This document shows, piece after piece, positions 1 to 46,942 of a stretch of 64,000 bases of DNA. The stretch is taken from contig VIQV01000033.1 of the NCBI GenBank assembly GCA_010206265.1, positions 1-64,000 of the forward strand, in the 5' to 3' direction. Each line of letters starts with the position of its first letter. The first letter of the stretch is position 1. A model generated the notes under the pieces. That model saw only the letters and a program-made list of their open reading frames with translations, had not been told where the DNA came from and ran no database searches. This DNA is from Lachnospiraceae bacterium MD329. Lineage in GTDB: Bacteria; Bacillota; Clostridia; UBA1381. A program made the position numbers and the translations under genes.

Positions 1-3000
1 AATAGCTGGCCAGGTGGAATAGGACCGACAGTAGCAGTAACGGCTGAGGGTAATTTGTTTGGATGGGGACGTTTGGATACAACAAATGGAACTAGTACCT
101 ATGCAACGCCAATTCTGTTAAGTCAGGCGACTGATGAAAATAACAGAATAATACAGGCAGCGATAGGTGGTACATCATATAGTAATAGTTATGAATATAT
201 ATTATATGCAAATGGAACTGTAGGTAACAGAGGTCATAGTGGAATAGACCTTTCATCATTAAATAATGTAACACAGGTAGCAGCAGCGCATAACGGATAC
301 TTTGGAGCAGCCGTAAAAGCAGATGGAACCGTTTGGAGTTGGGGTCAGAATAATGTTGGTCAACTAGGTCAAACCAATTATAATACCCCGGTTAATGAGC
401 CACGTCAAGTTGGTTTCCCGCCGACACGCAGATTTATCATTGACTATGCAAAGGTTTACGAAGATGGCAACCCGACTGCAATCACAACATATGATGAACA
501 GAATCCGATGCCGTCAAGTTTGACAGGCTCATATGCAATTGATGAAGACCATAAGTTGGTAATCGACAAATCAAAAATTACAGGTGAAAAAGTAGATGGA
601 TTTAATCTTATTCAGGATAAGGATTCGAGCTATTCACTTGAAAAGTTCATTAGAATAACGTCATTTGATGAGTCAATGGCAACAATTGAAAACGGAGATA
701 CAATTGTACCTAATTCTGATGGTAAATATGGTATTGTGCCCATTATTGTGCGTGATATAGCGCGCAATTTCACGGGTATTCTTCGCGTGGAAATTCGTCC
801 TGCAGATCGTTATGCAACACCGATGGTTTCTTCAAGCTTGTATTCAACAGTTGCATTAAAGGCGGACGGAACAGTTTGGACTTGGGGTAATAATGTAGTA
901 GGACAGCTTGGTAATGGTGAAACAGCTGATTCGCTTATCCCTGTTCAGGTTAAGAGCGGTGATACCGGTGACGGCAGATTCCTTGAAAGAGTAGTTCAGG
1001 TATCAGCAGGCGGTACATATGATGGCGGTAACCGTTACTTTATGCTTGCACTCCGTGAGGACGGAACTGTCTGGGCGTGGGGTGATAACAGTTACGGACA
1101 ACTTGGTAATGGTGAAACAGGTAACCCTAATGTAAGTAGTATTGACTATTATTCAGAACCAGTGCAGGTTAAAGCCGGCGAAAGCGACAGTATAGACGAT
1201 TATTTACGTAATATAGTTGCAATTTCAGCAGGTTCGAACTTCGCAATGGCAATGGATAGGTACGGTAACGTATTTACTTGGGGTAATAATGCTGTAGGTC
1301 AGCTTGGTAATGATACTAATGAATCTTCCAATACTCCTGTACGTCCGATAGGAGGCGAATCATATACGTCATATCTTGAGGACGCTGTCCAGATTTCAGC
1401 AGGCGGTAACTGGAATAGTGGTACACATGCCTTTGCAATGGTATTAAAGAAAGACGGCAGTGTTTTGACTTGGGGTAGTGACAGCAACGGACAGCTTGGT
1501 ATTGCTAATACAAGAGGTGGAAATAAGCTTTCACCTGTTAGAGTTGTGTCTGTTGATGAAGAAAGTGTTACAACAGGTCTTGAGAATGTTGTCCAGATTT
1601 CAGCGGGCGGTATTTCAGGAGCGGTAGTACACTATGAAATTGATAAAGATTTAACAAGTAAGATTGAAGATACAACTACAGGTCAAGAAGGATATGAAGA
1701 GACTTATATAAATCACAGAGCTTATACTTGGGGTTATAATGCCCAAAGACAGCTTGGTACCGGTTCTACAGCTACTAAGATTGAAAGCCCTGTAATAGTA
1801 AAAACACAGGTAGATGGTGCAGTAGAGGGTGAGAAAGAAGAAAAAATCCTTGATGATGTAGTAGAAATTTCCGCAGGTATGATGCATATGGCTGCACGAA
1901 CAGTTGATGCTGATAAAAATACAGCCGTATATACTTGGGGAAATAATGATAATGGTCAAATTGGTATAGATAAAGTTGACGGTAGAAATCCGCAATTATA
2001 CGCTACACGTGTATTAGGCGGAGAAACAAATAAAGAGTATCTTGAAGATACAGTAATGTTATTTGCCGGAGGCTATCATACAGGTTCGGTTCAGTCGGAT
2101 TATTCTGTATGGGATTGGGGTCATAACGCTTACGGTCAGCTGGGTGATGGTACGGTTGATACAAGACCGACACCTGTACAGGTTGTATCTGATTTAGGTA
2201 GACCTCAGCTGAAAATTACAAATGCTGTATGGAAAACAAACGGTGAAAATAATGATGTAACAATTTATTATGATACCCTTAGAATAGATGCTAAAAACAA
2301 GAGTGTTACAGCAATTCAGGAGGGTGACAAGCTTGAAATAGATTTAAGTACAATTACAGGCGTATCATCATTTAACCTATTAAGAGAATCAGGTTATACT
2401 CCTGAAAATCTGGAATTCCGTTCAATGGATGAAACGGTTGCAACAGTAGGCAATGATGGTGTTGTAGATGCAGTAGGTACAGGTATTACTTATATTATAG
2501 TAACAGATACAAGCAGCGGAGCGGAAGGATTCTTTAAATTGAATGTTGTTCCGCATAACGTAAGATTTATTGCTTATCCTGAAGTACATTCAGGCGTAGG
2601 TCATACTGTAGCGCTTAAAGCAGACGGTACTGTATGGGCTTGGGGCTACAATTATGATGGCGAAGTAGGAAATGGTACAGCAGGTGGTGTTGTCTATGAG
2701 CCTATGCAGGTAATGAGAAAAGAAAATCAGGAAGATCCTGATTCTCAGAACATAGCGCTTACAAATGTTATCAAAATATCAGTAGCGTCATATCACACAA
2801 TTGCTCTTACGGCAGACGGACAGGTATATACCTGGGGTTGGGGCAGATATGGACAGCTTGGTGACGGTCTTGTAACAAACCACAGCTCTGCTGTAGCTCT
2901 AAAAGTAGTAGGACCTACCTATAGTCCTACTAATACAGGAGTATATCTAAATCAGATTATTGATATAGGCGCTGCAGGATACCACGATTATGCAGCATAC

Positions 3001-15000: not shown

Positions 15001-15770
15001 GGTGCAGGTAAACAGATTGATAAGTCGAGCACACCTGTAAAAGCACAGGGTCTGAATAAGGTTATAAGCATTGGTGTCGGCGCAGGCGGAAACTCAACCA
15101 AAGCAGTTCGTTACGACGGTACTGTATGGGGTTGGGGTGAAAACGACCAGCAGCAGATAAATTCTTCAACAACCAATTCTTATGCGACTCCGACGCAAAT
15201 TGTACTTGGCAGCGAGTTTGATGGTAAGATTATAAAGACATATGACGGTAAGGGTCACGTTATAGCATTGTTGAACGATGGTAGAGTTATTTCGTGGGGT
15301 AAGAATAATCACGGACAGCTTGGTCAGGGTACAAGAACAGATGCTCTACAGCCCGTGGATTATGTTGACGTATTTGACGGCAATAATAATTATGTTGTCG
15401 ATATAGCAGTCGGTGCAAATCATAACTTTGCAATACTGTCTGACGGACGTGTATATGCGTGGGGTGAAGGCACACTGGGACGTCTTGGCTTAAACGACGG
15501 CGGACAGAACAAGACTTCTCCTGTAGAAGTTACGATAGATAACGGCTCACATCCTGCAATCGGTATCGCAACAGGCGGTTCGTCATCATATGTTATTTTG
15601 GACGATGGTTATGTATGGTCAATGGGCTCTAACCCGTATGGTCAGCTTGGTAACGGCTGTGCAGGAAGAGACAATGCATATAACTTTGTATATGATGAAG
15701 ATAAGCAAGAAGACGTGTTATCACCGAATCCGTCTGATGCGGATAGATATGAACCTGTACTTGTATCAGG
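1..15770 (+). repeat. RCC1 repeat array: ten complete seven-bladed propellers plus one partial
   Basis: The RCC1 signature (ALKADGTVWTWG followed by N..GQLG) recurs about every 50-60 residues. Counting blades by eye gives 3 visible in the edge block (1-420), then seven in each of these blocks: 811-2200, 2563-4245 (split 5+2 by an inserted domain), 4561-5715, 6016-7130, 7435-8665, 8996-10205, 10490-11565, 11876-12925, 13216-14300 and 14596-15770. Seven RCC1 repeats is the known blade number of an RCC1-type beta-propeller, so each block should fold as one closed propeller. A few blades have lost the WG core, for example the one near 10990-11030 (VWNIPTT) and the one near 12365 (VWKMSNN), but they keep their place in the count. 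Boundaries are accurate to about 30 bases. Confidence 0.88.
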
Positions 15771-18700
15771 CAGAACAATGAAGCTTAATCCTGAAAGTAT
15801 GATAGTTCTGCTTGGAAGCTCAGGAAAGCAGTTTGAAGTTTCACTTAACAGATTTAATCTTCTGTATGATACTTCAGTAAATAATGATACATATACTTGG
15901 AGTGTAGAAAACGAACTGGATGAAAATGGTAATTCGGTTATTACCATGGGTACTATAATTGATATCAACAATGGTCTTGTAAAGGGTAAAGCGCTTGGTT
16001 CAGGAACTGTTGTCGTTAGAGATACCAAGAATCCGAGAACATATGCAAAAGCAAATGTTGAGGTTAAAGACCCAGGTGAAATGCATCTTGAGGATATTAT
16101 CTTTGAAAAAGATAGACTTGATGAGGTAACAACAGAAATAGCAGTTAAGAGAGATTATCTGCTTGATAACGAATATACTATAACACAAAATCAAGAAGGC
16201 TATGATGTTTATAAACTTGTAGATCCGCTTAAGGGTGTACATGCAGGAACAGTAGCAGCAGAACAGGATACTGTTACAGTATATGTCAAGAGTATTCTTA
16301 ATGATGGTATTGAAGAGCCGGCAGATGTAATTTATCTTGTATCAAATAAAGATGAACTTGAAACATCAGCTACAGCTATAGTTGGCACTTACATCAAGAA
16401 AGATACGGCGGCTGAAGGTGAAGAAGATAAGATTGGATATTACAGATTTGATAATGTTCCTATAGGTGATCTTGAGGATAACTATTATTTCAGATTTGTA
16501 AATACATCACCTACAAAACCATATGTAGGAGTATTTAAAGCTCATACAACAAGATATTCTAACAATACTGCTTTGAATATCTGGGTTGATGAAGATGATG
16601 CAGCAGATTATCTTAATCCTGAAAATCATATCAATATAAAGAGCTCAGGTACAGCAATAAGAGCTATTTATTCAGAATCAACAGGTAACTATTATGCAAT
16701 TATACAGGAAACAGGAGATGTTCCTACAGAAAGAACGTTGTATGTTTATGCCGAAACTCTTGTATCGGGCAGAGTTGACAAGATGGGTGATACAACCTTT
16801 ACAACTGTAAATAGTGACCACGATGCAGCTAATAAGCACGAAGAATTCTATGATTTACAGAAGTTTACACTACCGGCAGATAAATCTTCAACAGCAGTAT
16901 CAATTAAGGTTATTGCTCAGAATGGTGAAGCAAAAGACCACAGACTTGTTATTTACAGACAGTCTGAGGCAACAACAATCAATAAGATAGAAGTAAGCAC
17001 TAAGGATAATGAGGGTAATGTTACAGGTACTTATCCGGCATTTTTGAGCGGTGTAGCTGGTGATACACAAAACTATTCGGTAATTATACCTGAAGGAGAT
17101 TTTGATAAGGTTAATATTACAGCAACACCTAAACTTGAAGATGTTGCGACTGTAACGTTCAATCCACAGTCAGTTTATAATGAAAGCCGTACAAATACAG
17201 AAGTAGGAGCTTACACATATGAGGATTATATCCTTGATAATACTGTTTCTACAGAAGAACCTGTAAGAATAGAAATGGAAGCAGGCGGTCTTGTAGGAGC
17301 GCCATATGTCCTGACAATTATCAAGGTAAAGGCTGATAAAGATCCGTTTGTATCAGTTGATAACAGTAATGCTATTGAGCCTACGCTTGAGGAACAAGGC
17401 GGTCAGAATGTACCTATGTATGTATATTCTGTGGCTGATGATGCTGAAACAGCAAAAGTTACAATAACAACTGTTCGTCCTAGCGGAGTAGTAAATGTAG
17501 ATGGTGCAACTGGCAATTATACCTTAACAACAAATGTTAATGTTACAGGTATAGGCCCTGAAGGTTATATTGATATTCCGATGTCAGTAACATCATTGGG
17601 TACCACTAATTCTTATACGCTTCGTTTGTATAAGGCATCGGCAGACGCTCGTTTGGATAAGATAACTGTTAATAAATTAATAATTGATCCTTACAATGTT
17701 ATAAATCCGCCGTATGAGGCTGAATATGACATTGAAAACGGCAAATATGTCGTAAAAGTCAAGAATGATACTGAATATGTCAAGATAAGTGCGGTAGCTG
17801 AACAGGCAACAAGTCCAAAAGCTAAGGTTGGTATTGGAAAAACGGAAGAAGAAGCTAAAAATAGAGCTCAGATTAACAGCGGCTTGTTCCAGTTCAAGGG
17901 AGAACTTGATGATGCGCTTGATGGTGATACAACCACCTTCTATATCGCAGTAATACCGGCTGGTTCACCGACATATCCGACTAAAGTATATCAGCTTGAT
18001 GTTGTAAGATTATCTAATAATCATAATATTAAGGTAACATTTGGCGGTACTGAAACCGAAGGCGGCGACAGAATTTATCCGGAAGGTATTCAGGGTATCT
18101 ATAAACATACGCTTCCAGCGTCAACTGACGGTACGGATAATACAACTCAATTCCTGAAGGTTGAAGGTTTGACGTATGGTGAGGGCGGAGCAGAAATAGC
18201 TGACGAGTCTATGAAGATAATTATTTCTGATTCAGACGATGCAGACGCAGTATTCGGTGACCGTGCAGCATATGATAAGGCAACATATAAGGCTGCAGAG
18301 CAAAAGACAGCGTCACTTAACCCGACAGTAGTATATATTCACGTTGAGGCAGAAGATGGTTCACGTTGGATGTATACAGTAGAGCTGTCTAAACTTCCGG
18401 AAACTTCTGGTGTAAGCGAGGTTAGATTGACAGAAAATACAGAACCTAATAGAATGACGTATAATTCTGCAACTACTACATTTACCGGTCAGGCACCATA
18501 TAGTCAGGACGGTATAAAGGTTTATGTATATGTAGTTGACGCTCGTTCAGAGGTTGCTGTAGGCAGAACAAATCCGGGTGCCTTTGAAAAGGTTAAGCCT
18601 GAAAATATGGTTGATCCTGATCACCCCGACAGAGGCGGATGGGTAGAACTTACTCTTCCGGTATCAGAAATGGATGATAAATCTGCAGGCAAAACAATAG

Positions 18701-21700: not shown

Positions 21701-24700
21701 ACCTTAAATCTGAGAATAGCCGAATTGCTCAGATCAGAAATGTAACAGATCCTGCAAATCAGCAGATTGTATACAACCCTGCTACGGATATAGCAAATTA
21801 TAACTTTACAATAAACGGCTTAAGCGGACTTACAGCAGAAAATCCGTTTGTATATGAAGTTGACATAGTGAAGGGTGACTCATCATTTGTCAAGACATAT
21901 AAACTGGTTGTTATTCCGCAGAATTCAAGTACAGATATTGAAGTAACTGTAAATGGAGTAAATGCTCCGTGGGTACCTGCCGGCGGCGGATATTACAGCG
22001 GAAGTATTTCAACAGAAGCTTTAAATGCAAATGTTATTGTAAAATCAAGCAATAAGAGCGTAAGACTTGCTATTACACGTGCAAGTGATACTACACAGCC
22101 TCTTATGAGCGACAAGGGCACTACAGCTGAACTGTTCAGTATTGCGCTTAATGAAGCACTGACTGATGATACAGCGGCAGAATTTATAATTCATATTCAG
22201 CCGCAAGGTGCTGCAAATATTATTAAACGTAATCTGCGCATTGTAAGAAGAAGTGCGGATAACGGCATTATAAGCGTAAAACGCGGTAGTGTTAACGCAG
22301 ATGTTGAAACGAATGAAGATACAAAAGAAACAACATATGTATTCTATATTGACGATTGGAATGAATCGGCAAACGTTACGATAGAAACAGCAGAAAATTC
22401 AACGCTGAGAGTCGGTTACATTGACGGCGATAACGGATGGCATAATAACGGTGAAACAAATGCAACTCCTGATGCAGATATGGATACAACATGGACAGCA
22501 TTGAACAACTGGAATGAAGTGCTTGAAGTAGCTGCAAACGATGGTAAGTATGTTATAAATGTAAAAGCCGCAAACGGCGATATTAAGACATACAAGCTTG
22601 AATTCCGTCCGAAGTCAGGCGATACAAGTCTAAAGAGTATAATTACAGAAAAGGATAAGGACGGACAATTCAATGTTAATATGAACCTTGTAACAATTTA
22701 CGAGGCAAATGTTCCTAACCGTACATCAACTCTTGAAATCATACCAACAGATAAGAATGCAAGAATTACAGCTATATATGAGGTTGACCTTCCTGATGAT
22801 ACAGGTAATGCAATTAATGGATCAATTCTTCCGATACTGACACCAGGTCAGCAATATCAGAAGGATGAAAATGGTGCATACCAGTTCAAGGTTAGGGATG
22901 GTGTAAACCACGGTCAGCGTAAATACATCAGAATTACAATTACTGCACACGACGGCAGTGTTGCAAATAAATATCTGTTGTTAAAGGGCTTGTCAGACGA
23001 TCTTTCAATTGATAATATTAAGGTTGGTACAGATACAAAGACAAGTGCAGACGCTATAGCTAACGGAACAACGTTTAACTTTGCTATTCCGACAGATACG
23101 ACAGAAGAAGATGTTATAATCACAGCAAATGACTATGCTAAGATTATAAGAGTAGGAGATATCAGACCGTCTGTTGAATCAAATGTATGGTCTAAACTTC
23201 CGTATACTATGTCTTCAGAAGAAGCAACGGAATTTGAAGTAGAACTTCGTTCAGAGCTGTATGTAAATGATACACAGACACCGAACGCAAAGAAGACCTA
23301 CTTTGTAAAGATTTACAAGATGAGCAACAACGCAGAGATGGGCGAAGTTCTTGTAAATGGTAAGTCGGCAATAACACGTAAGAATAATCCTACAATTTAC
23401 GAGGTTACAATTCCGTCTGTTGAGAATCCGAGAGAAGACCCTGTAAGTAAGCGTAGTCCTGCAACAATTACAATTCATACATCAAGCGGTATTGCAGAAA
23501 TTACTATGCCGGCTGAGGTAACGGGCGATCCTGATGATGTAGGTATGGGCGAACTTGAAGTTCCGAGATACCTTGATTCACCGGATGTTTCAACAGTAAA
23601 TGAATTCCACTTTACAATTAAGTCGTCTTCAGGAGCTGTAAAACAAGAATATGTTCTGTATGTATACACTGATTATGAAAATGTAGATGTTAAGGACGTA
23701 TTCGTAAATAAAACTAAGCTTGTAGCAGGCGATAAGGTAGATGCAGATATTTCAGTATTTGAAGATACGCCTGTTCCGGAAGAACGTACTTATACAGCGG
23801 TTGTAGACAGACGTAATCCGTTTGACTTGTCAGTTATCCCTGTAGGAAATATGGCAAAGGTTAGACTTACAGGCTATGGCATTACAACTCCGCTTATAAG
23901 CGACAGAAGTTACGGCTATGTATTCGAAAATCTTGAGCTTGATCCTGTAAAGGATACTGAGTTCTACTTCGAGATTATGAGCCACGACGGTGAGATTGTA
24001 AGTGATCCGTATAAGGTAATAATCACATACGTGGAAGAAACAGATACAGGATTAAAGAGCGTTGTCTTTGACGGCGTAGAGGCGGAAAAGGTACGCGATA
24101 AGATTTATGTTGTAAGAGCAGAAGAAGACGTTACTAACGGTATTCTGTCTATTACAGCGGCAAACGAAGATTCTGTAATCAGACTTAATAATTATACCTC
24201 AGAAAATGGTGTACTGAATATTTCTTATAACCTGACAGGTGATGTTTCAAAGGTTGACTTTACTGCTACTTCAATGGACGGTAATCATACTGTAAACTAC
24301 ACATTGTACATTATAAGAAAGAATACAGGCGCTAAGTCAGTATTTGTAAACAATACAGAACTTACAAAGACAGACGACGGTTATGTTTATGAAGTTAATG
24401 CAGAGGCAACAATTGCCGATGTACGCGTTATCGCTGAAAGCGAAGTTTCTAAAGTACAGATTGGCGGTAATGCACAGGTATTTGGTGAGGATAAGAGAAC
24501 AATCACCCTTACAGGTGATACAACAATTGTTCCTGTAAAGATTTACTCATATCCTTACGGAGAAAATGACGTAATAACAGAAAATGTTAAGATAATCAGA
24601 AGAGATATATCCCTGACACTGCTTACAGTATCTGTTAAGTCGGATTCGGATTTAGCTCCGAGAACTATAAAAGCTGACAGCTACGGAAATTATAAGGTAT

Positions 24701-27700
24701 ATATTCCTGTAGATGATCAGACGATAGATATTGCTGCTGTTGCAAAGACTACAACTTCAAGAGTAGGACTTTTGAGAGTTATAGACGGTGAATCAACAGT
24801 TCTGAATAACAGTGTCGGACAGGTAAATGTAGAACAGATTACAGACCTTGGAAATGAGAATAAGTTCTACATTGTATTGAGTAACGGTTCAAAAACAAGC
24901 CGTTATGACCTTGATGTTATTAAGTACAGCAATAATACAAGTGTTCTTACAGTTATTGCCGAGAGAGGCACAGACGAAGAGTATGTAGCGGCAGACGGCG
25001 CTTGCGGCGGCGGTTCTATAATTACTCCGGAGCAGCCTGACGGAAGTGAACAGCATCCGTTTGAGATTACAACGGCAGATGAACTTCAGGCAATAGCAGA
25101 TCAGCTTGATAAGCATTATATCTTAAAGAATGATATAGACTTGTCAGGATATAACTGGACTCCTATCGGTACAGGCAGAAATCCGTTTACAGGTTCTCTG
25201 AAGGGTAACGGAAAGAAAATTTCAAATCTGACCGTAAGAGTCGGCGGAGCAAATGAAGAATTTGGTCTGTTCGGTTATAACAACGGTAAGCTTGAAAACT
25301 TCAAGCTTGAAGATGTTTCACTGCAGATGTCAGGACAGACAACGCAGACACAGTATACAGGCGCAGTTGCAGGTATAAACGGTTCAAATGCAGCAATGAA
25401 TCAGATTGCAGTATCGTCAGGTACAGTCTATGCTAAGAATTATGCAGGCGGTATCGTAGGTAGAAATAACGGTACAATTAAGGATTCATATAATAAGGCA
25501 AATGTTGAATCAGGCAACTTCGCAGGCGGTATTGCAGCTGAAAACTACGGCGCAATTGAAAATGTATACAGCGTTGGTCTTGTTTCGACAACATCAAGCG
25601 AGGGTGAATTGAAGAGAGTAGGTTCACTTGTAGCAGTGAATGCAAATAACGGTACATTGAAAAATTCATATGCACAGATTCCAAATCAGCTTTATGTTGA
25701 AAGTCTGTCTAATACGAATGTGGATAATGTTAAGGCATATACATCAAATCAGCTTAAGAATAATTCTAAATTTAATAATTGGGATTTCACAGATATTTGG
25801 ACTATCTATTCGGGACAATATCCGACTTTGAAATCACAGTCGTCTGACGCAAGTATTAGTACACTTAATATTCCTGACGGAAGTGAGGAGCGTCCGTATG
25901 AGATTACTTCAGCAATCGGATTTAAGAGTATTGGAAATGACGCAGAAAGCCTAAAGGCACATTATGTATTAAAGAATGATATATCATTTATTCTTGACAA
26001 TGGCGATCAGCTTGTAATGGATCCGATAGGTTCTAAGACTAATGATTTATTTTTGGGTTCGCTTGACGGTAATGGTTATTCAATAAAAGACATTGTTATG
26101 ACAAGCAGAACTACAGCACTATTCCGTGAAAATGCAGGTACAATTAAAAACCTTGTCATTGAAAATGCTGTTATGGGTAATGCAGATACTTCAGACACTG
26201 CAGGATTAACTTTCTTTAACACTGGTTTGATTACAAACGTAGCTATTATCGGCGGAGTATTCACCGGTACCAATAGTGTATCAGGTTTTGCAGGAACAAA
26301 TAAGGGTAATATTAGTCAGTCATATATAAAAGATACAGTATTGACAAGTGATAACGAATCAGCAGGTATTGTTAATCTAAATACCATAGATGGTAGCATA
26401 AGATTTGTATATAGTACCGCCGATATGAGAACATCTCTTAATAAGAAAGCAATGATTGCCATATACAATGTTGATGAAATTAAGGATGTTATTACTAACA
26501 ACAAAGAGAAGTTTATCTATAATGATTCAAGCGATTCAGTATTGAACGATCCAAATAACTTCAATAAGAGTGTTCCTGCTATTCAAATGACGGATAAATC
26601 CACCTTTGATATTTGGGACTTCACAGATACTTGGGGAATTGATGACGGTAATGACACACCATATTTGTTAGTACAGAAGAATATGGGCGGAGCGTCTATA
26701 CAGACATTCAGCGCAGATGATGAAGTTTCAGCATTCTCTGATGATGTAGGTTGTGAGCACGTTGTATACATCAAGGATACAAAGAACTCCGCAAACATCT
26801 ACATTCAGGCTCAGAACCCGACGTCCACAATTATAATGGACGAGGTAGACGGCAAATCATATGTAGGCGTATATGAAGGTCTTGTTACAGGACTTATAAA
26901 TGAAAGAGAAGAAAGACTGTTCACAATCAGATCAACGAGCGGTCAGACTCAGACTCATAAGCTTGTAATAATCAAGGAGCCTACTGTTGCAAGTCTTGAA
27001 AAAGTTGTTGTAGACGGTAAAGAAGTTGAACGCGTAAACAATACATATATTGCGGAAGTTGATCCTAATGCAACAGTTGTTCCTGCAGAGATTATTCCAA
27101 GATCAGGAACAGTTCAGGTACTTGATGCAAGCGGTTCACCTGTAACTGGTGAAACAAGCACAGGTGATGTATGGTCAACAGAAGTTCTTCCGTCAAATCA
27201 GGGTACAACTACAACATATACTTTGAGAGTGACAACAAACAGCGGTTCATCAAGTATTGATTATACTTTGATTCTGAAACCTGCTGTATATCACACAGGC
27301 TTGAAGTATGTTGAAGTTCAGCCGCTTGAAATTGTTGGCGGTAATCCGGTTGGTAACGGATATGAACCTGTAGAAGATATAGTTGAAAATTCATACAACT
27401 ATACAATAAGCAAAGACCTGAGATTCATAGATATTAAGACTGCTGCTGTAAACTCAACTTCAAAGGTTAGGGTTGACGGTCAGTCAAACGGAAATGATAC
27501 ATATGAATATACTCAGTATATGCTTGATCCTGAGATAAAAGAGTTCTATATCCCGATAGATGTAGAAACTCAGGAAGGCGTTATAGAGCATTATGTACTT
27601 CACTTATCAAGAAAGAGTATTGACGCATCACTTAAGTATGTCAAAGTGACTTATGACAGTAATGTTTATACTCCTGACCCTGAAGAAAGAGTAATCGGTG

Positions 27701-30700
27701 TTGACGCAGAAACAGGAGAGGATATAACTATTACTGTATATCCTGTTAAACTGGATAACCCGAGCAATGTTCCGTTTACAAACCCGACACGCGTTGATAT
27801 TTCTATCGAGGCAAACGATACATATACTATCGTAAATGCGGGCAGTCCGGAGGCTCAGGATCCGACAAGCGCTAACACTTATAAGTGGGATGCGGTAAAT
27901 GTACTGCTTGATAATGAAGAACTTACAATTTACCAGATTAAGGCAAAGGCTGCTGACGCAGATGAAATTGAAATTTCATATCTGTATATCTACAAGCAGA
28001 GTAATATTACTGATCTGGAAAGTGTGACAGCAACTTATACTGAAAGAATCGGTGACGAAGATGTTCCTGTAACGGTTAAGGCTGAAAAAGACAGGAATGG
28101 AGCTTATCAGTTATGGCTGCCGATTGATGTTACAGAAGTTGACGTTGAGGCTATAACAAAGGCGCTGATGGCAGAAGTTGCAATAAGAGATCATACAGAG
28201 CTTAAGATGCACATTGACAAATATGAAGACTTCCAGATTACAGCTGCAACTGATGCTATATACATTGATGTTAAGGCGTCAGACGGAGCTGCAACTAAGA
28301 CACATACAATTCATATCAACAGAGTTGATTTGAGTCTTGATGAAGTGCTTGTAACACCGTTCAGTACTACACTTGCTCAAAGAGCAGAGTATAATGACGA
28401 TCAGAAAGCATACATTGCTCGTCTGGTTCCGATGAACGATCCTAAGGCGACAATAGCTGCGACTGCTACAGATTCAAACAACTATGTAAGAATCGGTCAT
28501 CTGACAAGACCTGAACCGCCTTCTCGCGGAGATATGACAGACGCAGAGTATGAGAGAGCGCTTGAGCAGTATCAGATAAAGCGCGATGCGTATAATCTTG
28601 CTGCACAGGGTTATCAGCTTGATAATACAAGCTTCGTTTGGGACGGCGTAGTAGGTGATTCAGAAGGTTGGGTACAGGCAAGTAATTCGGCTGCCGCACT
28701 TCCTCTTATAGATATCAAGGGCAAATCTACTATGATTGTTATTCAGGTAGGTATTGCAAACAACTATTCAGCAGATGATTCTGAAAGTATAGCTAAGAAG
28801 ATTGGTACATATAAGACATATACATTATTAGTTGGTCAGAAGTATATCAATGAAGTTATTGTTGACGAGGATCATCCTGAAAAGAACAAGAATGATGATA
28901 TTGATATTTATGTAGGATTGGATAGCAATCCTCCGAAACTTACTAACGTAAGTGTAGATATGAGTACTGGTGATCCTGTATATGTTTACGAGTACGGTAT
29001 TCCGAAAGATTACCAGATAGATCACGTTCTTATGAAGATAACAGAAAAGGCTCCAAAGCCATATGATCCGGTAGTAACGGTATCTAATCCGTCATTTGGA
29101 GTTACTGTTACAGATTATAACTATGATCCAACTGAAAATAATCTGTTAGAGATAAGGATTCCTCCGGCAAGTGATAATGCTGTAACAAATGTTAATATAA
29201 CATCTGTACCGGAGGCAGGAACTGCATATACCCGTACTTACAGAGTAGTTCTTTACAGATTATCAGATAACGTGAAGATACTTCACGACGCTGACGGTAG
29301 AGAATCAACGGTAAATGACGAAGGCAGAAGCAGAGGTGAAGTAGACAGAACAGGTCTTGTAAAGGATTACTTCGACGTAAGTGAAGCTACTATGACCATT
29401 GATGAAAACGGCAATAAGTATCTGCGCGTATACATCAAGACAGAGTCGAAGAATGCAACAATTACTCTTGGCGGAAAGAATTATAAGGGTATAACGGACA
29501 TTAAAAATGATGTCGATATAAATGGTGATCAGATTAAGGGTATTCTGATACCGGTTAGTGAAGGTGAAACTGAAAAGGTTATTCCGTTTACGGTTACATC
29601 TGAAAGCGGTAGGGAGACTTCAAGAAATGAATTCCACGTTAATATTCGTTCGACAAGTACAGATCTTGAATATATTACAGTAAACGGCGTAAAAGCTTAC
29701 GGACCGTATATTGATGAATGGACGGAGGAGTCATATTATAACGCTTATGTTTCTCAGAGTATAAAAGACAATGCTATAAACAACGGAGAAGAAACATGGG
29801 TAGTTGCACTTGCAGAAGGCAGAGGCGATACATTTGTAACCTTTATGGATGAATTTGGAACAACCGATATTGTTCCTGCAAGTCAGAGAAATGAATCCTT
29901 CCTTGTAGCTTATCAATTCTTATTCGATCAGGTTGAACCTGAAGATTTGGCAATGCCTGTAGTTATTCCTGTTAAGGTAGTTTCTGAGGCAGATGCAACT
30001 AATTATGAGATACATTACTTACGTGTATATCTGGCAGACAGTGATAACAACAGGGTTGAAGTTGATGATGAAACTGGAGAACACAGCGTATGGGTAAGCG
30101 AACTTGGTATGCTTGAAGATACGCCGAAGGCTGAGTATTTAGGTATACAGCAGAGTAAGGATGACGGTCAGTTCTATGAGACCTATGAGGTTAAGATGGA
30201 AATTGGCGTAACAGCGGTAGATATGAAGGTAATTGCTGATTCTGAATTTGCCGGTGTGGATATTTACGATCCGTATACACAGAAGTATTCAAACAACTAT
30301 CAGCTTCACGAAAAGACTGTACGCTTGTCTAAGCTTGAACCAAACGAATCATATGAGTTGAAGTTCAAGATTAAGTCACAGGATGAAATGCTTTCAAATG
30401 AAAGTAATCAGGGTAAACAATATATAGTAAAACTTACAAGACAGTCAAATGACAGACGAATAAAGAGTATTATATCTTATCCTGATGATACAGAACCGGG
30501 CAGATCACAGACATTTAATGATGTGACAACTGATGAACCTGTAATTATTACAGTACCGCACGGCGCGTTGACAGTACCGGTTCAGATAGAGGCTAACTTC
30601 GCGACAGCTCTTGTAGGTGTAACAATAAATGATGAAGATAAGGTATCAAGTACTAATGTTTACCACGGTAATACAGATACAGAACCATCTCTTCCGTTTA

Positions 30701-33700
30701 CTGACCTTGAGGCAGAATCAATAGATTATACTGTAAAAGTATGGGGTTATAACGGTGACATCAGACCTGCATACTATACAATCAGACTTGTACGCAAGAA
30801 GAATAATCTTGACCTGAAGGAAGTTATGTTTAACAATCGTATTGCAACAAGAGTCAAGGATAATGACGGAAATGATACCAATACATATACAATAGATATT
30901 GGTGAATCTGATATGTTAGCTGACACTATTATTGCAACGGCGAAGGATAGTAATAACTATGTAAGAATCGCAGACAATGATTTCAACAGAACATCAGATA
31001 GGCTGGAAAATCTTGACCTGTCAAGCATTGAAGTTGGTCAGCCGATGGAAATCAGAATTGTTGTTGGTTCATCTGATTTAGCAGAAGGAACAGATATTCC
31101 TGACCAGAGAGAGTTCTATACACTGGTTATAAAGAGAATTCCTGCGGGAGAAATCAGAGATGACCTTCGTTTGAAGATGTCTGTAAGTCATCAGAATACA
31201 AATTCAAACTTGTTTGTTACGGCAAACCAAAAAGGTGATCCTACATTTGATAATGAAAGCAGCACATATATTTATCATTATCATAGCTTTATCAATCCAT
31301 CAGCAGTAACGGCATACATAAAGTCTGAAACTAAATCTGCGACGTCAACCATTACATTCTTTACAATGGAAGATATTGCAATAAATGATCCGACACTGCT
31401 TATGGCTGATATTGAACGTGATATGGCAGGATTTGATGAAATACAGGTAAAGGCAGTTGTAACAGCCGGTGACGGTAAACAGCAGAAATACACGTTGATG
31501 ATTCAGAAATCATCAAGTGAAACAGGTCTTGCAAAAGTATTTGCAGACGCACTTATTCCGGGTACAGGCGAACAAGAAGTCAAAGGTGTTGCAAATACAT
31601 ATGTTACAGAGATGTTTAAAACCCCTGATGGAACAAAGAGAGAGGTTACAGCTCTTGAATATGTGATTGAGCTTCCAAGAGGTACAACTGAGGTAATGCC
31701 GTTTGCTTTACCGATAGATCCATATGCAACAGTTAGATTCTATGATGAGTCTGACAATATGCTCGATGCACAAATGCAGGGCGCAGATCCGACATACAGA
31801 GGTGCGCACGGCTATAGACAGCCAATGTCACAGCTCTCTACCCATGAGTATAAACTTGTAGTAACCTCAAGAAGTAATAATGCTCCTGCTTATTATAAGA
31901 TAAGAGTTGTCAACTGTCCTGAGGGTACACAGCTTCTAAAAGTTCAGGTTGGTGACAGAAAAGACGGATTTACTGATGATCCTATAGAGCATTATCATTA
32001 TGACAGAGAAAACGGTGTATTTACAGGAGAACCTAATGGTGGTCCTTCTGATGTAGATAACGTTCTTATGACTAATGCTGTTGAAACAGGTCTTACTACA
32101 TATGTTGGTAATGTTGTTCGCAGACCTGTACAGCCTACGGCATTGTTGAGTCTGGTTACAGAAAATGAATGGGCAACAATCTATATTAAGGAAGGCAATG
32201 ATTATGTACAGAAGGGTATAGGCGAATTTATCGGAGATGTTAAATTAAGTGACGCTACAACAACCACAGTATCTGTAAAGATAGAATCACCGTCAAGAAT
32301 AGCATCTTACTATAAGGTTTATATCTCAAGGTATCTGTATGATTATGAACTGTCGATGCAAGTTAATACGGAATTTACTACAGAACTTAACAGAGATGAA
32401 GTGAACAATATCTTCTATCACGAACGTACAAATCCGCTTCCGTTCTCGTTGACAGAGGCAGAGATGAAGATAGTTCTGGCAAGACCTAAGCAGCATACTT
32501 ACTTTATAAAGGTAGAGGACAAAGATAGAGACTTTATTGAAGTAAATGCAGCCAATAATATGATTTATCTTGATGATATTAAACTATCGGGAGTTTCGAC
32601 AGTAGTTCCTGTTAAGGTTTACAGTGCGGTTGATGAGCAGGGCGGCGGTAAGAAGCCGGGTAATGTAATGGCTACTTACTATGTAACAATTACCCGTAAG
32701 CAGCTTAACGATAACTTGGGTTCAATCCTTGTCAATGACAATGAGGCTTATCCTGTTAACGACCCGAGTGTTAATGCTGACTTTGAGGCATACTCTTATA
32801 GCGCGGCTGCAGATCCTACGGCAAATGTAAAGATATTCTCAGTAAATAACAATGCTATAATATCTATCTTAGGAAAAACAATCGATCAGAACTTTAGCGG
32901 TATAGCTGACGGAAAACTTGAGGCAAATGTTAAGGTTCAGGAGGGAGATAACTTCTTCCAGATTCAGGTTGATAATCCAGGTGAGCCGTCAAGATATTCT
33001 ATGCTTTTGATAAAGCATATTCCTGTAGATGTATATCTCGACGATATGTACATTACTCCTAAAGATGTGAATGACAAGATTCCGTTCTTGAATAACACCT
33101 TTAATAAGAATGTTCTGGATTACTCAATCAGAGCAAATGAAAAAGTTCCTGATTATGATGTATATGCTAATGCGTCATCGACACAGCAAGCATTGCAAAA
33201 TTATGCAAGAAATAAGGGTTATGATGTAAGCGATTGGCAGACAAAGATAAGAATTCTTGATTCAAAGGGCGAACAGATTCAGAACTTTGGAGAATATGTA
33301 AAACAGCTTGTTGAAACTATAACTGAAAGCGGCGGAACAGAAATACCTAATTACTTCACAGTTCCGGTATACCTGATTGTACCGCACTATCAGAAGAAGT
33401 ACAGCATTGAAATTCATGATTTATCTGATAATGCAAAATTAAAGGATTTACGAGTTATAAATTATACTCTTGACCCGGAATTTGATCCGAATGTGGAGGC
33501 GGCTGAAGAATATAAAACCACAGTTCCGTCAGAAGTAAGCAATGTGGACATCTTTGCTCATGCAGATCACGATCATCCGGGGGCGCGTACGTTGGTTACA
33601 TTATTAAATGAAAACGAACAGCCGCTTGGAAGTGAATATGTTGAGATTACAAAGAATGTATCGCTTAAATACGGTGAAAACATATTCTATGTAAAGGTAA

Positions 33701-36700
33701 CAAGTGAAGCGCCTCAATACACGGTACCTGAAGGAGAAGGTGAGGGAGATGAATCGCAGGATAACACAGGTATAAAGATTTACAAAGTAGTAGTATACCG
33801 TACTCCTATTGACGCATCGCTTAAGTCAATCCTTGTTAATGGTCAGCCTCCTGTACTTCAGCAGGACGGTACATATGTAGCATATGTCAAGCCGGGAGTA
33901 ACATCTGTTGTTAAAGCATTGGCAGATGATACAAGAGCCGTTATCAAGGTTACTCAGGGAATGAACACTGATTCTAAGACGATGAAACAGTGGGCACAGA
34001 TTACTACAGATATAATTAATGACGAAACTCTTGTTGATATTAATGTTTCTCTTGAAGAGAGCGGAATAATTGAAGTAAGCAAAGATTATGTTCTTAAGCT
34101 TATTCCTGTAAACGGGGATATTCTGAACATTCAGTTGGATACGCTTTATAGAGGCAGTGATCCTGTAGAAGAAGGTTTCAAACCTACAGTAACTCCATAT
34201 GTTAATCCGATAGGAGCTGTTTGGAATGCTGACGAGCAGCGTTATGAAATAACCATTCCTAAGAATGCAACTATAACACCTTATATTCGTGTAACAACAG
34301 TTGAATCGGATAAACAGGTTCAAGTTGGTTCACAAGCTTGGCAATGGGCAGATAACACAGCACAGGCAGATAACTGGTTCACAACAAGTATCACTCTTAT
34401 GAATGATCCGCAGGAGATGGAAATCTTTGTACGTGGATATGCTCTTGTTCCGGGTACTACAGATCAGTATGTATTTGGTGATTCAAACAGATATAAGTTG
34501 TTAATCAAGAGAGCATCTAATGAAGCAGAGCTAATTGTTCTGAATCCAGAGGATGGTGTTCAGTTTAATGAAAACAACGGACGCTTTGATAACAGCATTA
34601 CAACATATACAATTGACGTTGCAAGCGATGTAAATGATGTTGAGTTTACTGAAATCAGAGCAAGCCAGAATGCGTCAATTGAACTGATGCTTTCATCAAG
34701 TACAGGTGCAAAGCCTGTTATCAACCATAATAACGGTGACGGATTTATCTTTGATAATCTTGAGTATGGAAATAATCTGATGAAGATTAAGGTTATCTCT
34801 GAGGATAAGACTACAACAAAAGAATATCAGGTAACAATCAGACGTCAGCAGCCTATGAAGGATGCAACTCTTGATGATATAAGAGTACAGATTGGCGGTA
34901 AGTATTACAGTTTGATTCCTATGTTCGATAAGAATATAATCGATTATAAAATGATTATTGAGGCACAGAATGATGAAACTGTAGATAATATTGTACTTAC
35001 AGCTACTCCAAGTGCAGGCGCTCAATATACAATTATAAGCAGTGTGAATGAGGAAGATAATGTTACTCATCAAATAGGAAGTCCGGCAGTTGTTACAATA
35101 GATAATAAATTAGCAAGTAAATCAACAACTACAGTCAGATTTGCTATCACTGCAAATAATGATCAGAGCATAAGAGAATATACAATTGAACTTTATAAGA
35201 ATGACAGCACGAATATTAATCCGAACCATAACTTCCTGAACAGCATTGCGCTTGAATCTCATCCGCTTACAATGCTTGATTCTAATACGGATATCGACTA
35301 CAACTACTATACAAGCGTAGACAGTACAATTTCACAGGAGAAATTGACAGTCGTTCCGAATGTGAATGTAACAGGTACGATTGGTGATATAAAGGCATCT
35401 TTATTCTCTGCAAGGGATGAAGGCGCTGGATATGTTCCAATGCAGTCAGGAGTTCCGATGGATCTCAGACTTGATGTTGGTGATAATCTGTTCCTGATAA
35501 AAGTAGAAGATAATGACGATAATAAACGTTATTATTCAGTTATTATTAACAGAGCTGCAAGTCCGACAGCAAATGCGCTTGTTAAGAATCTTGCAATTAC
35601 AGGCGTAAGTACAGCTCCAACCTTTAGTCCGAATGAAACGTCATATAAGATGACGGTTGGCAGCACTACAAACTCAATTTCAATCCACGCAGTTGCAGAC
35701 CGTGATTTAACGGAAATGTGGGTAAGAAGTGAGGCACAGGATTACGACTTAATTAATGCAGGCCGTGTAAATGCTGATAATATTCCGCTTGTAAACGGCA
35801 GCAATAAGATTGTTATTACAGCAACAGCTTCTGATAAACAGACTAAGAAGGTTTATGTATTTAATGTATATAAGACAGCTCTTGAAGAAGATGCAGATCT
35901 TGTTAATATTAAGTACACAACCGGTGGTGTAATGAATCCGCATTTTGACAGTGATCATTTAACATACGATTTAATTTACCAGAATGATACTTCGGAGATT
36001 GAACTTACACCGATAGCTCGTATTCCGAATATTACTGATATTACTGTTCAATTAAATGGAGGTACAACATCTTCAATAGAAAGCGGAGAAGCATTCAGAC
36101 TTGAACTTCCTGAAGGAAAAACAACAGTAACATTCAATGTAAGCCATAAAAACGGAGGCGGAGATAAATCATATACGGTTAATGTTTATCGTAACCCGTA
36201 CGAAACTCCGATACCGTTCTTATCACAGGCTATTGAAGTTTACGACCAGCATCATACACAATATGAATTGACTCCGGCTTATGACAGAGATGAACATTCA
36301 TATTATGTAAGTGTTCCGCCTGAGTTTGAAAAGGCATTCATAAAGGTATATGCAGAGTCAGGCGATTCGAGAAATCCGCAGAATGTTGGAATCACTGTAA
36401 ACGGAAATACCGTAGCAAGCGGTGATGAAACAGAGATGAATAATATTGTCGATGGTGATAATGTTGTTGACATCAAGATAACAAATGGTCAGGGTAATAT
36501 GGAATCTTACACGGTAATTATAAACCGTGCATCTCGTCCGATACCTGAACTTGAAAATCTTGAAGTACTACAGAATTTCGCATTAGTACCGACATATGAT
36601 TCTGACTATGACGGTGGATATTATGTTAATGTTGATTCTGATACAGAATTTATCAACCTTATTCCAACAGCAGCTGAACCTAATAAGGTTAAGATTACTG

Positions 36701-39700
36701 TTAATAACGTAATGGTTGAGAGTGGAAGAGCATCTCAGAATCTGGAGCTTGAAACAGGTAAGAATACAGTAATTGTTACTGTTACAGCACTGGATACAAC
36801 ACAGGATCCTGTACAGGCTACAACAACAAAACGCAGATATCTTGTAAACATATACCGTCCGGAAGTATCTTCAGACAATGTACTGACAAGTCTGCTTCTG
36901 AATAACGGAACTATAGTACCAGCTTTCTCAAGAGAAATTAAGAACTACTATGTAACAGTTCCTTACGGTGTAGACGAAGTAACAATGGAAACATCGGCTA
37001 AGAACAGCGGCAGCGTAATCCGTGTAAACAGCGACGAGTATACAGGACCTATGACCCTGTCACTTGATCCTGAAAAAGATAATATGTTTGCAATAAAACT
37101 GTTCGAGTCTGCTGAGGCTAATACGCCTGACAATGTTTACTCGCTGAAGATATTCAGAAAGAATCTGATTGCAGATAATCCGGACCTTAAGTCATTAGAG
37201 GTAGTTGGAGCAGCTCAGATTCCGGCAGTTCAATCGCGTGAACTTAACTACTATGCATATGTAAGCCCGTCTGTAACAGAAGTAAATGTAAGGGCAGATG
37301 CAAGAAGTGATAGTGCTACAGTTAGCGGTACAGGTACAGTAACGCTGACAGGCGATAAGACACCGCACGTTATTACTGTAAGAAACGGAAACACAGTACA
37401 GAGATACTCAGTAACAATCATTAAGACCGGTGGTTCGGCAGATGTTGTAGGTACTCTTAATGGCAATCAGCTGTCACAGGTAAATACAGTTCAAACAATT
37501 ACAGTACCTGATGGTACAACTGTACTTCCGCTTAACCTTAGTGCAACAAACAGCGATGCAATCATTACTGTAAATGGCAGAGAGTTTACAAGCGGTGACA
37601 CTGTTGACTTTGATATGACAACCGATAAGGAAAGATTTGATATTACGGTAAGACTTGAACAAGGTGCAGTTTATTCGACAAAGGCATATGTTGTATATGC
37701 TGAACGCGATAAGGATAAACCTTATGAACCGTTTATCGAACATTTCTACATTGATCCGACAGCTTCAAAGACAGATAATGAAGCAACATTTACAGAACCG
37801 TTTAATAAAACTCAGTTCATCTATGAGGCAACAAATGACGGTAATACTCCGTATCTGTTTGCAAAGAGTGATGATGAGAATGTTCATATTGAATTGTTCA
37901 ATGAAAAGGATAAGGATTATGCGGTTGTAAAAGACTTAAGTTCTTATATTGAACAGACAATAGGTACTACAGGTTCAGCAACCTTCAGATTTAGAGCAAC
38001 TAAGTTTGCAGCAAGCGGATATGAGCTTGTAAACGAATATGTAATAACTGTATACAATACAGATGCTCCTATCCTGACAAAGTTGTGGACAGAAAATGCT
38101 ACAATGAAGGATACATTTGAACCGCTTAACAGAGGACCTTATGCTGTTGAAATAGGTAAGGATACGACAGAATTTACAGTACACGCTGAACATAACTACG
38201 CTAACGGTATTGTAAGTATGAAGCTTGACACTGGTTTTTATAATGATGGTAAGGATCAGACCTTTAATACTCCACTTGATAAGAACAACTTTACGGTTAA
38301 AGTTCGAATTAAGGTTGGAGATGAAGAAGGTATATACACCTTGAATGTAACACGTCTTGGTGAATTGATTCCTGATATATTCATTGATAATCTGGAGATT
38401 AAAGATGAAACAGATGCAGACGATGGTTTCTATGAGTTAAACAAAGATTTCGATAAGAATTCAACTTCATATGAAACTACAATTGATTATCGTGATAATA
38501 CGGTTATCCTGACTGTAACTGCCGAAGATCCGTCAGATATATTAATCATAAAGACAAGCGATGGCAAAGAAGTGAATGTTGTAAGCGGCAGACAGACAGA
38601 AATCACACTTCCGATAACCTTCTTTGAAAGTGATGACGCTGAAGAGCTTATAAAGATAATTGCTAAGCGCGGCGTTGGTGCGGACGAGAAGACAGGAACG
38701 TATGAGCTGACTGTTAAACGCGGACCTCGCGCACTTGGTACTGCAAGACTTGAAAGTCTGACTACAGATCTTCACGATCTTATGCAGCAGCCAAATCCGG
38801 AATTTGACCCAGACGTATTTGATTATACCGTTTATGTTGCTCCGGATGCGACAGCCATTACTGTAACTGCAGTTGCGGATAAGGAAGATAATATTATCGT
38901 ATTTAATAACGATAAGACTCCTGTTTATACGCATACGGCGGAACAGACATTTACACTTAAGCCTGAGGATAAGGTAAGTTACATATTTATTACTGTTTCA
39001 GGTGATGATGATACTCCGGCTACTTATAAGATTAAAGTAGAGAGAAAGAATAATGCATTCTTAACTAAACTGGAAGTAACTGATACTGATCCTAATGACG
39101 GTTATGAGAAGTTCCTTGCTCCGAACAGTATATTCAATAAGGATGTAACTAACTATGAAGTTCTTGTTGATCCATTGGCATCAAAGATTGAGTTCACAAT
39201 GGGAACTGATGCGGCAGATGCAACGCTTACTATGCTGATGAATGGTCAGGTTCAGGCGCAGGCTAATGGTGAAAATGAGCTTGCACATACCTTTACGCTG
39301 GCATATGACCAGAAGACTTTCAATCTTGAATTTAAGGTTGAATTTATGGAAGGTACAACCAGAAAGAGCGGTACATATTATGTAACGGTTACAAGAGATA
39401 CTGAGCTTGATGAACCTATTATGCAAACTCATATAGAAGGTTTTGCATATACAGTTAATAAGGATGACCACACAGCTAAAATAACAATGTATGATGAAGA
39501 CGGTCAGGTTCCGGTTAATAGCAGCGGCGATATGGTGCTTGAAACACCACCTACAGGTTTCTTCTCAATCGAATTGCCGCACGAAGGTATATTCAGAATT
39601 GTTATGGAGCGTGAGGGTTGTCTGGACAATGAGATTAAAAACATTGTCGGAGTTAAGACTTTTGTAAGAGCCAAGTACGACTTTGGTAATAGAAGACGAC

Positions 39701-46912: not shown

Positions 46913-46942
46913 TTTAAAAAAATTTTAAGAAAGGATATAATT

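Follow-up and report, generated by a model that had tools for sequence, protein, structure and literature searches.

In a window of 64,000 bases from a bacterium that probably comes from an animal gut, one real and intact gene, cut at its 5' end by the contig edge, takes up the first 40,644 bases. Its product combines an array of RCC1-type beta-propellers with a long stalk of cadherin-like domains, and it ends, by predicted fold, in what looks like an X-module followed by a dockerin-like segment; the adjacent gene starts with a predicted cohesin fold. We propose that the giant protein is an adhesive fibre tethered to the cell wall by a cellulosome-like anchoring that does without enzymes, and that the fibre's reach is set by its number of propellers. 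We put the probability of this reading at roughly 60%.

Results

The giant frame and its missing start

The window comprises bases 1-64000 of contig C3 (75,956 bp), in a genome of 2.74 Mb and 86 contigs. One plus-strand frame (1..40644; 13,547 codons) fills 63.5% of it and is stop-free until its own end, as an earlier note had described (a single uninterrupted frame of over 13,500 codons, filling 63% of the window and still open upstream). About 965 stops would be expected in this frame from base composition, against none observed; in 200 shuffles no stop-free run exceeds 165 codons, and the remaining five frames hold 494-1793 stops each. Since base 1 of the window is also base 1 of the contig, the gene is truncated by the assembly and not by a stop. 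Within the frame we find no DNA self-match of at least 95% identity over at least 60 nt, so that collapse of identical repeats inside the window is unlikely.

The N-terminal 1,468 residues of the giant are probably encoded on another contig, C18. An RCC1 search of the genome found there, on the minus strand, a frame of 1,468 aa that begins with ATG and runs open off the contig end. Its start reads by eye as a signal-peptide-like sequence, preceded by AAGGGGAG, which resembles a ribosome site (Shine-Dalgarno); acidic and Thr/Val/Glu-rich stretches follow, and then RCC1 repeats. The upstream start and signal peptide to which the earlier note had pointed are in this way supplied, the latter by eye only. 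The frame lies divergent from genes that we read by eye as L7Ae-like, rpsL, rpsG, fusA and tuf.

The end of C18 and its interior share a near-exact repeat (157 bp, 99.4%), a stretch of 180 bp is exactly duplicated in tandem, and bases 1-351 of the window have a counterpart of 351 bp within the contig at 95.4% identity; the assembly therefore broke within near-identical propeller copies. Residues 1-1466 of the C18 frame align to residues 13-1532 of an intact homologue (G010), on which the start of the window maps to about residue 2240, so that some 70 to 700 residues would be missing and the whole protein would, by this homology-based estimate, measure about 15.1-15.7 thousand residues. If the inner copy on C18 were itself the start of the window, the summed length would be about 14.6 thousand residues; against this, protein identity over a longer stretch is only 47%. 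C18 contains 13 N, which makes its inner part unreliable. The two contigs were kept separate and not joined, and there are no long reads from the strain.

Homologues, length variation and selection

The C-terminal 748 residues are matched in 9 of the 16 genomes of the genus, the source genome included, and a profile of the N-terminus finds matches in 12 of these 16, in 14 of 70 genomes of the family, and in 8 of a set of 40 that comprises G016 and genomes around it. Thirteen of 14 carrier genomes have one N-terminus, and G003, with 8% contamination, has two. Eight homologues are intact, each beginning and ending within a contig and free of N, and range from 15.7 to 37.7 thousand residues when counted from an early start codon: G010 (15,713), G005 (17,616), G001 (29,377), G085 (32,701), G012 (33,033), G009 (33,065), G016 (34,107) and G079 (37,709). 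G016 is the closed genome AP025582.1, a single contig of 3,230,334 bp. Related bacteria have versions that exceed twice the length of the window's, among the larger bacterial proteins known. The giants of G008, G015 and the window itself are cut by contig ends. Also left out of the intact count are G017 (18,501 + 13,329 codons with one stop between, on a contig with 945 N) and G076 (32,936 codons with 100 N near the 3' end), the latter also absent from the blade table, and the lengths listed do not cover fragments in G003, G006, G011, G014, G032, G033 and others, which were read only in part.

Two close pairs of giants are on average under purifying selection. In an alignment of the full chain, G009 and G012 are 93.2% identical with a dN/dS of 0.214 over 33,007 codons, and G015 and G008 are 82.7% identical with a dN/dS of 0.099 over 13,391 codons (dS 1.02). 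Three further comparisons (G010 with G008, G010 with G015, G005 with G010) give 0.15-0.18 at a dS of 2.0-2.8, near saturation. All of these values are averages and not zone by zone. For the window's own giant, synonymous sites are saturated against both G008 and G010, hence no ratio is given; its residues 10-13539 align with G008, and residues 11-13544 with G010, each in one collinear alignment (47.6% and 48.2%).

In light of these data it is scarcely credible that the frame arose by misassembly or is a decaying gene, even though the assembly does break at near-identical repeats on its left side, C18 combines its N with an exact tandem duplication, and the G017 homologue is split by a stop on a contig rich in N. 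The window frame has no near-identical self-matches, the eight intact homologues include one from a closed genome, and dN/dS is 0.10-0.21 in the two close pairs. On chance expectation, the internal DNA repeat scan, the intact homologues and the dN/dS values we reject an artefact. A pseudogene fragment cut upstream is likewise rejected: the cut is the contig edge, and a fitting 5' part lies on C18. Those of the earlier note's refuting conditions that could be put to the data have not overturned its reading.

Propellers, spacers and stalk

The first part of the frame (1..15771, plus strand) is an array of about 10-11 RCC1 beta-propellers with Ig-like (Big_2-type) spacers, recognised by the Pfam families RCC1, RCC1_2, WD40_RLD and Big_2 and by a profile of our own; the number of propellers was judged by eye, from clusters with no more than 7 detected blades each. 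The genome has 59 RCC1 places, all above the Pfam cut-off (PF00415/PF13540), and 49 of them lie in this frame. Our blade profile, built from the window frame and iterated over the family, detects 58 blades at 10 bits or more between residues 108 and 5257. Clusters often contain 7 or 6 blades; others are smaller and probably hold undetected ones. Big_2 scores above its cut-off in one piece of the frame (28.3 versus 22.8 bits) and below it in another (17.8). The propellers and Ig-like spacers that the earlier note had read from the letters are accordingly present.

A stalk of cadherin-like beta-sandwich domains follows (16636..39396, plus strand). PF12733 is found at 14 places at E<=0.001, 13 of them above the cut-off, including one that passes only together with its neighbours, and our own profile detects 41 domains at 10 bits or more and 50 at a domain E<=0.01. 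The zone has room for about 65, so that the "some 60" domains claimed earlier remain possible, but 41-50 are detectable. Within the stalk lies a GLUG-type beta-helix (24988..26670, plus strand; limits approximate, by eye), for which PF07581 scores 25.8 bits against a cut-off of 20.5, its best stretch at about 25438-25506; here too the earlier reading stands. The same is true of the absence of enzymes: no enzyme family appears among the Pfam matches in any of the 15 pieces into which the giant was divided, and a weak match to Glucodextran_B is one that we take to be a non-catalytic domain. Sortase or membrane anchoring was considered and rejected, with no LPxTG within the last 100 residues of any of nine giants scanned and, in a simple hydropathy scan of nine giants, only 0-9 scattered marginal segments in each (maximum 1.92; one in the window frame, and most, 9 each, in G016 and G085).

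Length differences among the homologues fall on one part of this architecture. Blade counts are 58 for the window's giant, 63-64 for G008 and G015, which are also cut, and 80-228 for the eight intact homologues, whose propeller zone spans 6.7 to 26.1 thousand residues. The chain after the last blade measures 8.1-11.0 thousand residues in all 11 proteins. With the stalk constant and the propeller zone variable, length differs almost only in the RCC1 array. How the array grew is less clear. In a nearest-copy test, the best partner of a propeller window lay within 700 residues oftener than random in three giants (G005, 7/17 versus 17%; G001, 9/45 versus 7%; G009, 6/51 versus 6%), with no clear excess in G016 (5/51 versus 6%) and none in G000 (2/11 versus 25%) or G079 (3/57 versus 5%). 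These mixed results allow no firm conclusion on whether propellers were gained by recent tandem copying. Alignments of G000 with G016 and with G005 place the array differently from those of G000 with G001 and with G009, which leaves the site of expansion unsettled.

A predicted X-module-like domain and a split dockerin-like segment

The last 410 residues contain two dockerin-like loops with some 200 residues or more of acidic linker between them, one loop right behind a carboxypeptidase-regulatory-like domain and the other at the extreme C-terminus. An AlphaFold model and Foldseek place the X-module-like (carboxypeptidase-regulatory-like) domain and first dockerin-like repeat at 39409..39858, the linker, predicted to be disordered from its sequence and from a pLDDT below 50 at model residues 168-339, covers 39868..40440, and the second, terminal EF-type loop lies at 40519..40554, all on the plus strand. 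The terminal loop is recognised by its pattern and by an EF-hand_6 match below the cut-off (E 0.018); the same pattern is found in the giants of six of seven operons, not in G001. Type I dockerins are defined by two adjacent calcium-binding repeats, and with its repeats about 200 residues apart the giant does not meet this definition.

Sequence support for a dockerin is weak. CarboxypepD_reg and Dockerin_1 matches in the C-termini of relatives are below the cut-off, and Dockerin_1 (PF00404) never exceeds it in the giants (best score 20.5 versus 22.9 bits, in G016) and has no match in the window giant's own end. The AlphaFold model has a mean pLDDT of 56.5, poor overall, with 36-42 for the other four models; it is mostly good at residues 1-100, moderate at 111-130 and good again at about 361-411, with poor values between, and the first dockerin-like loop (residues 106-110) is under 50. 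For this model Foldseek returns 11 matches at E<=1e-3: six to the dockerin-side chain of type II cohesin complexes, four to chains of scaffoldins, 303-309 residues long, that hold an X-dockerin, and one to a putative carbohydrate-binding protein. TM-scores for the X-dockerin match 2b59_B are low, at 0.21 and 0.49 by query and target. We infer from the 133-143 columns of the fold match that it covers the X-module and first repeat only, and docking of the second repeat is not demonstrated by it. The "dockerin-like end" of the earlier note thus finds support in relatives and in predicted fold, and not in a Dockerin_1 match of the window's own protein.

A predicted cohesin in the adjacent gene

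Gene 2 (40977..44840, plus strand; 1,287 aa) encodes a cohesin-like N-terminus, an InlB-type repeat, a cadherin-like domain and a dockerin-like C-terminus. Its N-terminus was modelled from seven homologues, and the cohesin-like module (41055..41741, plus strand) reaches a pLDDT of 76 and a pTM of 0.80. Foldseek gives 27 matches at E<=1e-3; judged by title and chain length every one is a cohesin, and 22 carry type II in their title. The best is 5g5d_A (E 3e-6), and the top match has low to modest TM-scores (0.43 by query, 0.59 by target) and an rmsd of 7.7. Eight PDB entries occur in the Foldseek lists of both the giant's C-terminus and gene 2, each time through different chains: 2b59, 5g5d, 4u3s, 4wi0, 5m0y, 5k39, 4fl4 and 3kcp. 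Cohesin is the known partner of X-module-dockerin, and the two adjacent genes would therefore, by predicted fold, encode both sides of a known complex.

At the sequence level the case that gene 2 starts with a cohesin fold is weak and only suggestive. Pfam Cohesin (PF00963) scores 13.8 bits against a cut-off of 24.1 (E 0.07) in one of seven members, another match in one of the seven is to the unrelated MORN_DRC7 (E 0.0053), and a profile search of the PDB returns a single match, a cellulosome-anchoring protein, that is not significant (E 0.11). A cohesin-like module is present in the gene directly after the giant in all seven operons read, by a profile built from these same operons. A profile search of the other genes of the row found no convincing cohesin module, the best weak matches being a 372-aa ORF outside the row (E 0.0068) and the SLH gene 7 of G001 (E 0.0088). 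Other Pfam cohesins are encoded elsewhere in the genome, on contigs C6 and C45, so that the giant could have a partner other than gene 2.

The row continues on the plus strand with five further genes. Gene 3 (44837..46912; 691 aa) has no Pfam family and a degenerate paired repeat at its C-terminus, gene 4 (46943..52675; 1,910 aa) has Listeria-Bacteroides (Flg_new) repeats, and gene 5 (52698..57401; 1,567 aa) has three SLH domains (PF00395, E 1.5e-33) and is a predicted wall anchor. Gene 6 (57541..59967; 808 aa) combines MBG domains with a canonical Dockerin_1, and gene 7 (60009..64000, continuing to C3:67274; 2,421 aa) has a Cthe_2159-like carbohydrate-binding domain and, by eye, an SLH-like C-terminus. 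Neither a dockerin-bearing glycoside hydrolase nor a CBM scaffoldin is found among the six window neighbours, gene 7 being considered only to the window edge and the genome beyond it excluded. Gene 2 has no SLH domain; this and the lack of a convincing cohesin in the SLH proteins leave the final connection to the wall unaccounted for.

Discussion

We propose a model in which the giant is secreted as a fibre, with N-terminal RCC1-type propellers on Ig-like linkers, then the cadherin-like stalk with its beta-helix, and finally the 410-residue end made of an X-module-like domain and a dockerin-like pair split by the acidic linker. Because export begins at the N-terminus, the propellers would exit first and the C-terminus would remain near the cell, an inferred orientation in which the fibre would most likely be held through its C-terminus. 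The X-dockerin-like end would be caught by the cohesin-like module of the gene 2 product, and the dockerin-like end of that product, or other contacts, would join the complex to the SLH-bearing products of the row; this pairing, too, is inferred. Facing outward, the propellers would offer numerous sites at which glycans or proteins of the gut surface, plant fibre or other cells could bind, with both the adhesion and its ligand being inferences at present. Protein domains are about 4 nm in size, from which we infer a fibre contour of some hundreds of nanometres, and its propellers, a dozen or more, would be displayed well away from the wall. Species may alter reach through the number of propellers while keeping the stalk and anchor.

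This model assumes that no cleavage divides the protein, which we infer. A secreted precursor could instead be cut after export into a stalk and many units of propeller plus Ig, in which case a full-length fibre would not exist, and the regular repeating units with linkers would suit such a polyprotein; the collinear orthology is compatible with both. We consider this quite unlikely, in that no protease domain appears among the giant's Pfam matches, a C-terminal anchor would keep only the last unit on the cell, and the array is held in a single frame of up to 37.7 thousand residues though separate genes would suffice. Unlikely as well, in our view, is that the giant is no adhesin and instead provides the backbone for a surface coat, extracellular matrix or S-layer-associated, built with its large dockerin-like and SLH neighbours. 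SLH- and dockerin-bearing proteins do stand in the same row, and a giant protein of V. archaeovorus has been proposed to form a coat (PMC10066038). A constant stalk with a variable head fits a projecting fibre better, however, and nearly all carrier genomes have a single N-terminus, although the number of copies per cell is not known. Predation or contact killing, as proposed for the giants of Omnitrophota, would accord with a similar size class and surface location (PMC10066038 and PMC12057145), but is very unlikely here: the Pfam matches of all 15 pieces include no enzyme or toxin domain, and the marginal hydropathy segments of each giant, nine at most, compare with 42 helices reported for V. 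archaeovorus. We thus favour the wall-tethered adhesive fibre.

The proposed tether resembles cellulosome anchoring (CipA/ScaA of Clostridium thermocellum and Acetivibrio; PDB 2b59, 5g5d) in that adjacent genes encode, by predicted fold, a type II-like cohesin and an X-module-dockerin-like end, with SLH proteins near the giant gene. It differs in that the window neighbours include neither enzymes nor a cellulose-binding scaffoldin, both modules fall under Pfam cut-offs, the dockerin repeats are split by an acidic linker, and the tethered protein is a fibre of 15-38 thousand residues. RCC1 repeats are also found in a cohesin-dockerin setting in Cthe_0258 of C. thermocellum, a 51-kDa protein of composition (RCC1)5 listed among cellulosomal proteins in PMC6083626, from which listing its dockerin is assumed; it has about five repeats, compared with 80-228 in the intact giants, and no cadherin-like stalk.

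Giant proteins are known from other bacterial lineages. The large ORFs of Chlorobium chlorochromatii measure about 36.8 thousand residues. They resemble the giant in size and in a proposed role in adhesion (the role according to PMC10066038). Apilactobacillus kunkeei encodes in a row Giant1-5, secreted surface proteins of 3,000-8,000 residues under purifying selection, with a median dS 4-8 times dN (PMC12863079). Like the giant described here, these are Gram-positive secreted surface proteins with a long repeat region; they differ in the beta-solenoid head of Giant1-4 and an SH3b-like end, and the sections of that report open to us mention no propellers or dockerin. Omnitrophota share the size class and a proposed surface role: the V. 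archaeovorus giant ORF has 39,678 residues and 42 helices (PMC10066038), proteins of up to 85,800 residues are cited from a preprint (PMC12057145), and one giant carries nine non-cellulosomal dockerins. For Omnitrophota giants, membrane helices and domains that degrade carbohydrates have been described, and most of those in Velamenicoccia are said to be poorly conserved and to have few domains, whereas the Clostridia giant is conserved and defined by its domains; with no enzyme by Pfam and a single marginal hydrophobic segment in the window frame, it is not of the Omnitrophota type. These published lengths rule out a record, and size by itself is no novelty. According to a survey of huge proteins, those of 26-35 thousand residues rarely have signal peptides (PMC11573180); the giant family apparently has one, by eye.

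Our coverage of the literature was partial and confined to open-licence texts, and within it we found no description of giant RCC1/cadherin-like/X-dockerin fibres. Whether these proteins form an undescribed class of Clostridia fibre is, in our judgement, an even bet; such a class would combine a cadherin-like stalk of 8-11 thousand residues, about 12 to at least 30 RCC1 propellers that set reach and valency, a non-covalent type II cohesin/X-dockerin tether encoded by two adjacent genes, and a dockerin split by an acidic linker.

With domains recognisable over most of its length and conserved orthologues of very different length, the family makes the purpose of bacterial proteins of 10-40 thousand residues, a long-standing question, testable. 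The anchor hypothesis can be tested with two small recombinant modules, and AP025582.1 offers a relative whose genome is closed. Because lengths range naturally from 15.7 to 37.7 thousand residues on a constant stalk, one can ask what is gained from extra propellers. If our proposal is true, these secreted chains of 33-38 thousand residues would be the largest known use of cohesin-dockerin outside cellulosomes, extending this chemistry beyond enzyme complexes to adhesive fibres. The family also sets demanding limits on translation and export, with chains exceeding 30,000 residues that would each pass through one translocon.

Assembly and neighbourhood of the giant gene

The probable N-terminal piece of the giant gene lies on the complement strand of another MD329 contig, C18 (positions 1-4404; locus L001), and contains a 180-bp segment repeated exactly in tandem, as well as N at 13 dispersed positions. 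A 351-bp stretch within this piece is 95.4% identical to window 1-351, and we conclude that the duplication, the N and the window-like stretch together mark where the assembly was scarred by propeller copies that are nearly identical. Divergent from the giant gene are L7Ae-like, rpsL, rpsG, fusA and tuf genes (C18 4820-9718), which we identified by eye; fusA and tuf also adjoin the giant gene in loci L057, L059, L060 and L063. The giant homologue in CU972 (genome G017, C2:60001-80000; L081), which lies on a contig rich in N, is interrupted by one stop near 67.4 kb, leaving pieces of 18,501 and 13,329 codons.

Related modules elsewhere in the genome

MD329 encodes an additional small cohesin-dockerin set, made up of Pfam cohesin frames on contigs C6 and C45 (401 aa; 843 aa with two cohesins; L054, L055 and L056) and a 1,629-aa frame with a Dockerin_1 domain (C23:110513). 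By eye, region 311-9932 of L002 (C34:60000-79000) also encodes a secreted protein of 1,042 aa that combines a subtilase with RCC1 repeats, next to a 2,157-aa RHS-repeat protein.

The downstream row

Genes 3 and 4 (window 44837-52675) both carry two copies of an ‘NNLDAS’ repeat at their ends, resembling a dockerin that has degenerated, and their homologues in the related genomes G010 and G015 have paired repeats as well; the dockerin-like loop pattern was not detected in these repeats. Further along the row, the window's SLH genes, gene 5 (52698-57401) and gene 7 (from 60009; SLH-like end judged by eye), encode 1,567 and 2,421 aa, whereas their counterparts in long-fibre species are very large: 5,730 and 3,948 aa in G012 (C6:113425-142594; L021, L022 and L085), and 4,960 and 3,443 aa in G001. 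Anchor-gene size and array length may be linked across species.
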